From contig NC_088300.1 in assembly GCF_032854445.1 (NCBI RefSeq), forward strand, positions 57,884,984 to 57,948,983: a stretch of 64,000 bases of DNA, in the 5' to 3' direction. Made by a program: the position numbers and the translations under genes. Origin of the DNA: Liolophura sinensis. Its lineage: Eukaryota > Mollusca > Polyplacophora > Chitonida > Chitonidae. Positions 8,801-11,800 of the stretch are shown here, piece by piece. How positions within the stretch are numbered: the stretch's first letter is position 1; each line of letters begins with the position of its first letter. Below the pieces are notes generated by a model, which saw nothing but the letters and a program-made list of their open reading frames with translations, had not been told where the DNA came from and did no database searches.

Positions 8801-11800
8801 TGTGAGATGGCACTTACTGCATCAACTTGATGTGGTGCTATGATTGTCTGATGTGATTCTTATATCATACAGAATGGCATGAATCATGGCAGTGCAGTGT
8901 TAGCTGGGCAGGCCTGTAGCTGTAAGGGTATGTACAGGGCTGTGTTGTGGGGGTGTGGGCTGACTGACTCTGACTCTCACTGTTACAAATGCCTTAACTT
9001 CTGGTTGCAGACAGAGAGGGGTTAGATGCTTTGCCCAAAGCCAGTGTGTAGGGGTGTTCCTTTCGCTGACCTACATTTCCCTCTGTGACTGGCTGCTGCT
9101 GATGCTCATGCCCATTCTCTCAGCCAGAGAGAATAGAGCAGGCAATTGGTACTGCCTGTATTAACTACAATGGCCAACCACTGGCTTAGCAATGCTCTAA
9201 CATGGCCTTGCTGACAGGCCAACCTACATGTAGATGTGAAATCTGGGACAAGCCTCTAGTAGATGAACAGATGAAGGGCGTTATAGTGCCCATGGTGAAA
9301 TAAGGTTTCTGTTCCGTCCTGTGTTGGCGGTGTCTTGATTGTTGCACAGATTGTTTTCCTGCATCATCATAGTACTTAAGGAAAGAGTGTATGAGCATAT
9401 ATACATGTACATGTAGACTTATGACAAAAGCGGTGTATTGATTGAAACTTGGCATTGGTAAGAATGTTGTGTGCTGTGTAGGTCTCTAACATATAGTGAC
9501 CGACAAGTGGCTTTCACTGTCTGGGAGAGACTGACATCATAAACTAGGAGACCCTTAAATTTAACATGCACTACATTACACATGTTGGCAATGTCATTCA
9601 ATATTGAGCTCTTCCTGCATTAAATTGCACAGATACCGTAATTATAGGTAGAAAACTTATATATTTATAGGTGAATATTTAAGGTATTCGGTATACTGTA
9701 TATGAATTTCACCATGGATGAATGTAGAACCCTGCGTGAAGTATGGGCATTTTATGTCCTGCACATGGGGGAATAATAAAACAATTTCTATGCACACAAA
9801 TAACTGGATTTTAGAGAATAAATTGAACTTTGTTTAAATACATGTAAGTAGTGTACATGTCTAATTAAAGTGGTGTTTCAGGAGATATTGGTGGTTTGCT
9901 TGTCAAGTGAAATATTGAGTACCTCTAGATCTTGACCCATGGGGTTGCAGGTTCCAGAGCAACTCTGGCTGATTTGTTTTTATTTTCTACATCATCATGA
10001 GATTTGTCAGGTGCCTGGCACAGTGCAGTGTTTTACTTTAGACTCGGGTGTCTGTCCATCTTACTTCAGCGCTAAACATCACCTACTTCATGAAACACCA
10101 ATTAAATAAATTTTATGCATAATGCTACATGTCAGAGATATAAAATATCATGGCAATTTGAACATATACATGCTCAATGCTGAAGTAATGCTGGAACCAA
10201 AACTACCTGTAGACGGTTATTTTATAGTCACATTTGGTTTTCACATATAATTATGTGAAAGCGGATGCTGGAAATATATATACATATATATGTCCTGTAC
10301 ATGCAAACTGACTCTAATTTTTTATCTGGTGTTGAGTGCAGCCTAGTGGCAAAGTAAATTCACAGTGCACATACATGCAGATATTAGATGTACAGTGTAG
10401 TGATTGGCTTGTGCTCTTAATTGTATACACATGTACATGTGAGATCAGAAGGCCTTTCAACTCTCTGGTACATTACACAGGAGTCTATAACTTATAAGTG
10501 GGTGAATAGTTAGGCGTGAGTTCAGTTATTCCATCATTTTATCGTATATCCTATTCCATTGCTTTTCATTATGATGCCCTAAATGATGCTCCTCTAGAAT
10601 ATGCTGGTGTGTGTATTCATTTATAGACGCAGTGTGTGTAGACCTATAATGCAGTGGTCATCATCAACATCTAGAACATCAGTCTTTAGCATAAGAATGA
10701 ACTACAGAGATCACATATTCTGTCACAAGGGTTGACCTATGTTATGTGTCTTTTTATGTTGACAGAGTGATTATGAAGTTACTCCTGACGAAAAGAGGCC
10801 AGTTAATGCTCAAACAATCCTGGAAACCTATCTCCTCTCAGAGGTAAGATTTTCCTTAGGCCAGGTGTCTGGAAGCTAGGCCACAGGTGCCTGGAAGCCT
10901 TTCTCCTCTCGGAGGTTGGATTGTCCTAATGCCACAGGCACCTAGAAGCCTATCACCTCTCTGGGGTGTGATTGTTTTAAGGCCTGGTACCTGGGAACCT
11001 CTCCTAAGTAAGATTGTTTTACGGCCACAGGTGCATGGAAACCTATCTCTTCTCAGACGTGAAAATGTTCTAAGGCCAGGTACCTGGATCCTCTCAGAGG
11101 CAAGATTGTTTTTGAGGCCATAGGTGCGTGGAAACCTATCTCCTCACAGATGTGAACTTGTTCTAAGGCCAGGTACCTGGAGTCTCTCAGAGGTAAGATT
11201 GTTTTTGACGCCATAGGTGCGTGGAAACCTATCTCCTCTTAGAGGTGAAATTCTTGTAAGACTACATGCACAGGTGGTCTTGGATGACCGTATTTTGTTA
11301 TAAAAGATGAAGCATGCATTCGGGACAAAAATCTTCTTTCATAACTTTTAATTTTAACATGGAACTATATTTGGATTTTTGGGCTTTTTGCAGAGCTTTG
11401 CAGCTCCAACATTAATACCGTGTACACATGAAATAGGTGTAATGATACCTGTTAATAGAACACACTGAAAGAAATTGTCTTCAGCAGTCCGATCATGCAC
11501 CAAGCTTGGCACTGTTCTCTTGTGGGCTTAGCACCAATACACCTGTGACCACAGTTGTACAAGTGAATGTGAATGAAATGTACATGCGTACCCACCCTAC
11601 TTCTTCAACCTTTTCAACCACCTCTGCAACCAATATTTTGAAACATCCTGAGATAACTATGGGGTGTACAGAAATAATTTGCACAATTTCTTAAAGCTTG
11701 TTTCTTGAATGAAACAAAGAAACCATTTTTGTGTTGGTTTCATAATAATTGTCCCCATAAATTCCACTGAATAAAGTGCTTTGGAGGTCGAAGATTGAAG

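Follow-up and report, generated by a model that had tools for sequence, protein, structure and literature searches.

Within a stretch of 64,000 nucleotides from the chiton Liolophura sinensis (G000:C6:57884984-57948983, called the window below), a gene of the GRK family, kinases that silence receptors, carries, in the intron behind its exon at 10766-10843, a minisatellite of 401 bp (10859-11259) whose units are copies of the end of that exon and of its splice donor. Judged from its sequence, the array is quite probably a minisatellite that was born at the exon end and is neutral or nearly so, with possible leaky use of the donor in one of its copies (M8), and it is one case of a class that recurs in this genome. 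Directly supported are the origin from the exon, the finding of no other copy, the strengths of the donors, the position of the stop codon and the recurrence of such arrays at other genes. The chiton assembly appears to be that of PMC11068029, for which the species name has been corrected to Liolophura sinensis (PMC12441733), and the genome searched comprises 632 contigs with 609,464,459 bases.

Exons of a GRK4/5/6-type kinase lie on the + strand of the window from 5716 to 25906, as located by local tblastn, for which a human GRK5 sequence was the query; the N-terminal start of the gene was not found with this query. The exon in front of the array (10766-10843, + strand) has 26 codons, is in phase 0 at both ends and was assigned to the GRK4/5/6 type from its translation and from GRK5 structures. 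An intron of 4.2 kb separates it from the next GRK exon (15033-15136, + strand), which is preceded by a strong acceptor and the start of which had been correctly named as the acceptor position in an earlier note on this DNA. Jointly, the two exons match GRK5 structures with an E value of 9e-5, in an alignment that is gapless through the last codon of exon 10766-10843 and reaches well inside exon 15033-15136, and when the genome was searched at the protein level with both exons, the GRK locus was the sole match.

The tandem array described in the earlier note behind this exon end is real, since Tandem Repeats Finder (TRF), a repeat search and matches to an exon-end word agree on it. It consists of a 20-nt remnant copy (M1, 10859-10878) followed by five copies of 51 nt (M2, 10879-10929; M3, 10930-10980; M5, 11023-11073; M7, 11116-11166; M9, 11209-11259) and three of 42 nt (M4, 10981-11022; M6, 11074-11115; M8, 11167-11208), all on the + strand. 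After the remnant the order is long, long, short, long, short, long, short, long, with the end at 11259 and no clear further copy beyond it. TRF reports 10945-11250 with a period of 93, 3.3 copies and a score of 384, the later array being made of long/short dimers of 93 bp, and the repeat search counted the exon end (10802-10894) among the copies of the 93-nt unit, at 61%. Head-to-tail units of 42 and 51 nt and dimers of 93 bp lie within the range of about 10-100 bp that characterizes minisatellites. The eight copies of 44-51 bp proposed earlier are thus confirmed as an array with later dimers, but their sizes are 51 and 42 nt after a 20-nt remnant; likewise, the CACAGG motif said to bracket every copy occurs in M2, M3 and M5 and as the variant CATAGG in M7 and M9, and neither form is present in the short copies.

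That the GRK exon is the source of the array is well supported by the sequence comparisons. When up to 3 mismatches are allowed, the 24-mer GGAAACCTATCTCCTCTCAGAGGT from the exon end is found five times in the window, always at the array locus, and not once in 100 shuffles; in the 609-Mb genome it again gives five matches, all at the array locus, and its reversed control gives none. A search of the same 609 Mb with the whole stretch returned only itself and no second copy of the array, so that an older copy of the repeat elsewhere, which the earlier note had held to speak against its proposal, was not found in the genome. Scores of a 46-nt exon-end probe range from 13 to 26 along the array and do not exceed 13 elsewhere in the window. 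The last 28 exon bases (10816-10843, + strand) gave rise to the exon-like portion of the units; the long copies share 20-23 of them, and the exon equals the long-copy consensus at 25 of these 28 positions. Homology of the exon to GRK5 up to the last codon, together with the lack of copies elsewhere, argues for the exon as the source, and the growth of the array from the GRK exon end and its donor, as originally suggested, is borne out.

One can picture a short tandem duplication that captured the final ~28 exon bases of this GRK gene, the donor and ~20 intron bases. Further duplication would then have produced long copies of 51 nt and shorter ones of 42 nt, followed by amplification of the 93-bp long/short dimer. 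Slippage or unequal exchange may have been the copying process, and the order of events is likewise the one we infer from the copies. The copies would have been tolerated because the true donor is first in line and intact.

The true donor (GAG/GTAAGA, with GTAAGA at 10844-10849 on the + strand) pairs with U1 at -9.6 kcal/mol. As a separate observation, the exon end CCTCTCAGAGG is a near-palindrome spanning the donor. Among the eight donor-bearing copies, one (M8, 11193) is identical to the true site in its nine bases and in U1 energy; apart from that site, it is the strongest GT donor of the 4.2-kb intron, the best of the 241 GTs outside the array reaching -8.4. One copy has a GC donor-like site (M6, 11100), one a fair donor (M9, 11245, -7.0) and five have weak ones (M2, 10915; M3, 10966; M4, 11008, with U1 pairing of -4.5 kcal/mol; M5, 11059; M7, 11152). 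The 'ladder of decoy donors' that had been proposed therefore holds in part: M8 equals the true site, and most copies are weak or decayed. In addition, when the copies are compared with the exon copy, the donor columns are not better kept than the others and if anything worse (p=0.11), with mismatch rates of 0.40 in donor columns without the GT, as against 0.11 for the body of the exon and 0.42 for the intronic bases. Scanning the intron with cut-offs of -7 or better for U1 pairing and of 11.5 on a home-made acceptor score, on which the two true acceptors reach 13.8 and 15.8, placed 6 of its 12 strong GT donors and 8 of its 22 acceptor-like sites within the array. Two of these six GTs (11193 and 11245) are copied exon donors and the other four are different GTs of the unit.

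Read-through from the exon meets its first in-frame stop, a TAG at 10877-10879 (+ strand), after 11 residues, precisely where the earlier note had placed it and upstream of every decoy donor. Use of any decoy would therefore truncate the protein, and the claim that such use yields a truncated message is right at the sequence level. A possible pseudo-exon of 162 nt (11031-11192, + strand), predicted with the home-made acceptor score, also contains an in-frame stop. The M8 donor may be used at a low level, and either its use or inclusion of 11031-11192 would produce a truncated message that is probably degraded by nonsense-mediated decay (NMD).

To see whether the GRK array is alone in the genome, we scanned it for donor words in three tandem copies and retrieved 72 distinct arrays (L002-L036, 33 arrays; L103-L141, 39 arrays), taken from the first 100 listed places each for AGGTAAG, AAGGTAAGT, CAGGTAAGT and AAGGTGAGT and from all 24 for GAGGTAAGT, so that contig C1 is over-represented. 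They were compared with 26 control-word arrays (L037-L062), from the first 100 listed places of AGTGAAG, and with 40 single AAGGTAAGT sites (L063-L102), picked as isolated ones from the first 100 listed and all on C1. An automated exon test, which asks for an acceptor-like site by the home-made score and for 45-320 nt of open frame up to the first donor, was positive for 29/72 donor arrays, 1/26 control arrays and 14/40 single sites (Fisher's test, p=0.0003 against control arrays and p=0.69 against single sites). For AAGGTAAGT alone, 7/19 arrays and 14/40 singles were positive (p=1.0). Raising the acceptor cut-off to 13 left 21/72 arrays, 8/40 singles and 1/26 controls, and requiring an exon of at least 60 nt left 27/72, 12/40 and 1/26, respectively. 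By eye, seven positives are likely spurious (L007, L030, L032, L107, L120, L125 and L136); on the other side, the test missed L127, which has Pfam support, and L014 and L140 also resemble overlooked exons. Four of the 14 positive singles (L067, L072, L078 and L095) belong to a dispersed repeat in which AAGGTAAGT is preceded by a tract resembling an acceptor and by an open frame (with peptides such as RISTALL...); splice sites might be supplied ready-made by such a repeat. Without this family, 10/36 singles are positive. Within the power of the sample and the noise of the test, donor-word arrays thus start at exon ends at a rate similar to that of single donor words, and there was no clear enrichment or avoidance of exon ends by donor arrays relative to single words (72 vs 40). 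The GRK array itself falls outside the search patterns, its intact donors being too few and too far apart, so that old exon-end arrays are probably under-counted.

A genome-wide excess of donor-word arrays was also considered and set aside. Three-fold words outnumbered their reversals for four of the five words (AGGTAAG, 3086 vs 1452; AAGGTAAGT, 119 vs 71; CAGGTAAGT, 301 vs 158; AAGGTGAGT, 153 vs 51) and the relation was reversed for the fifth (GAGGTAAGT, 24 vs 119), the control AGTGAAG giving 1569 vs 1643; these hits overlap in large arrays and are not counts of arrays. Counted from the listings, the first 2.94 Mb of C1 hold 8 donor-word and 7 control-word arrays. The reversed word also fails as a baseline for true donors, as AAGGTAAGT occurs 7537 times and its reversal 10164 times.

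Homology supports an exon in 10 of the 72 arrays, support being defined as a Pfam match above cut-off or a PDB E value below 1e-5, and nine of the ten are positive in the exon test. Pfam was run on peptides of 28/72 arrays (8 above cut-off) and of 10/40 singles (2 above, 1 below), and PDB was searched for 4/72 arrays, two of which gave E values below 1e-5. These two are exons of RPTOR (L010, 5e-11) and MED12 (L029, 3e-9), each with homology to the last residue; a former assignment of the L029 exon to a GINS subunit was overturned by the MED12 match. At L010 (C1:2109700-2113300, exon end 1829), the RPTOR exon end and its donor have been copied twice into the intron, 52 bp apart. Pfam identified ankyrin exons (L023, L117), a core-2 branching enzyme (L033), GH31 (L108), SMAD MH2 (L115), CAMSAP (L124), TARSH_C (L127) and a sulfotransferase (L134), the homology stopping 13 residues before the exon end in L033 and 14 residues before it in L127. 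The ankyrin match of L023 lies above cut-off for the exon alone and just below it when two array units are added. In nine of the ten supported arrays, a downstream copy contains 15-49 exon bases (at most 20% mismatch); L115 has only 5. No PDB match was found for the SLC44-like exon of L020, and weak matches only were obtained for L036 (PDB E=0.036) and L131 (sideroflexin, below the Pfam cut-off).

If decoys were generally used, one would expect donor spacings that keep the reading frame to be favored. None of this was seen: the modal spacing is a multiple of three in 13/29 anchored and 18/43 other arrays (p=0.50). A general selection on frame had looked stronger in a hand tally (8/13 vs 7/21) and was rejected when the signal was lost in the automated test.

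Several observations weigh against a neutral minisatellite born at the exon end. In its intronic part, the copy at the exon itself agrees with the consensus of the long copies in no more than 9 of 14 positions. GTs of -7 or better are over-represented in the array (6/28, vs 6/241 elsewhere in the intron; p=0.0004), an excess that could possibly reflect real splicing effects, and the predicted folding of the array RNA (10859-11259) is more stable than that of dinucleotide shuffles (z -2.8). In the survey, the strictest setting (acceptor 13 and exon of at least 60 nt) retained 19/72 arrays, 5/40 singles and 1/26 controls, which leaves room for some enrichment of arrays at exon ends. Finally, the donors of four arrays are largely open and in frame (15/15 in L021, 7/7 in L130, 7/8 in L108 and 6/7 in L023), and decoys could be in use there. 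The units of these arrays measure 42, 36, 39 and 33 bp and the exon ends lie, in donor orientation, at 1626, 903, 864 and 1594, respectively; L108 and L023 are the ones with homology support.

The earlier note had left it open whether the array tunes GRK levels or is neutral slippage. Tuning would require that the true donor faces competition from copied donors and pseudo-exons and that the truncated share sets the level of GRK, for which one could invoke the perfect M8 donor, the concentration of strong GTs and acceptor-like sites in the array and the stop at 10877 upstream of all donor copies. However, most donor copies have decayed, the donor columns are kept no better than the rest, and similar arrays stand at other exon ends at about the base rate; regulation thus goes unsupported, and we regard it as improbable. 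Because the frequency of similar arrays at exon ends is close to that of single donor words, neutral slippage is favored. A little less improbable, yet still unlikely, is that the 11193 donor is used without regulation, as steady splicing noise with a slight effect on fitness: it is indistinguishable from the true donor in its nine bases and U1 pairing and is preceded by copied exon sequence, but its use would make an exon of 427 nt instead of 78 nt. The sequence common to exon end and array could in principle also mean that the repeat is the older element and supplied the exon end, which is very hard to reconcile with an exon that aligns with GRK5 through its last codon and with a repeat that has no copy elsewhere in the genome. 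Least credible of all is an assembly artefact; tandem repeats are hard to assemble, but the copies differ from each other and the published assembly was built with HiFi reads (PMC11068029). A minisatellite born at the exon end and at most leakily spliced at M8 accordingly stays the preferred reading.

Poison exons, which act by alternative splicing coupled to NMD, are extra exon sequences with a premature stop that are used and conserved. The GRK array, known from its sequence, also offers extra exon-like sequence in which inclusion would add a premature stop, be it as an extension (TAG at 10877-10879) or through the stop in 11031-11192. A donor minisatellite of IFI6 (G1P3, 6-16), reportedly described by Turri, Cuin and Porter in 1995 (NAR 23:1854), is said to lie at an exon-intron boundary and to have units of ~12 bp. 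Like it, the GRK array begins at an exon end and has units derived from exon end plus donor; the IFI6 donors are reportedly used, however, whereas the GRK units are of 42 and 51 bp with donors that have mostly decayed. PMC3618361 cites the IFI6 minisatellite for interference with splicing. According to PMC2812944, minisatellites in human segmental duplications (average unit 30 bp, four copies) are located at exon-intron boundaries, as in the GRK array, and can alter splicing; those cases came from comparisons of nearly identical human paralogs, with transcript support, whereas ours is a single mollusc array known from genome sequence. Tandem duplication of an AGGT segment can supply new splice sites, as reported in PMC4974935, which also refers to fission yeast genes with a repeated 24-bp exonic segment; there the copies form a new intron within coding sequence, whereas the GRK copies sit inside an existing intron behind the donor. 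The IFI6 donor minisatellite and the boundary repeats in human paralogs (PMC2812944) are the closest known kinds, and in the portions of the open-licence literature consulted we found no genome-wide account of donor arrays born at exon ends in a mollusc.

Elsewhere in the window, further minisatellites lie at 19654-19889 (period 38 bp), 48440-48951 (41 bp), 62649-63299 (34 bp) and 63771-64000 (71 bp). COQ9 (35363-36262, minus strand) occupies one uninterrupted open frame, 299 codons long (Pfam COQ9, 2e-31), and is perhaps intronless or a retrocopy, and an open frame at 39911-40288 matches HAD-like hydrolases (Pfam Hydrolase_like, 1e-12). The window has no Rfam match at gathering scores. Contig C99 holds mitochondrial genomes in tandem, with seven COX1 copies, one of them partial, at intervals of about 15.5 kb, probably an assembly concatemer. 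Translated with the invertebrate code, COX1 is in keeping with a mollusc.

With copied donors placed in a row behind the true site, each in its own exon context, the GRK array constitutes a natural experiment on how the spliceosome chooses among near-identical sites. The occurrence of such arrays at GRK, RPTOR, MED12, GH31, CAMSAP and other genes of one genome suggests that the birth of minisatellites at exon ends recurs and is tolerated. A more far-reaching and rather doubtful idea is that minisatellites are born again and again at exon ends of the chiton genome, which would leave many genes with ladders of donors: where the units are stop-free triplet multiples (L021, L023, L108 and L130), the number of copies would determine how long an in-frame protein extension becomes, and genes like that of GRK would acquire truncating decoys. 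Decoy use in these four arrays would lengthen the protein by repeats, and, if the idea is true, slippage there would feed new coding sequence directly into exons.
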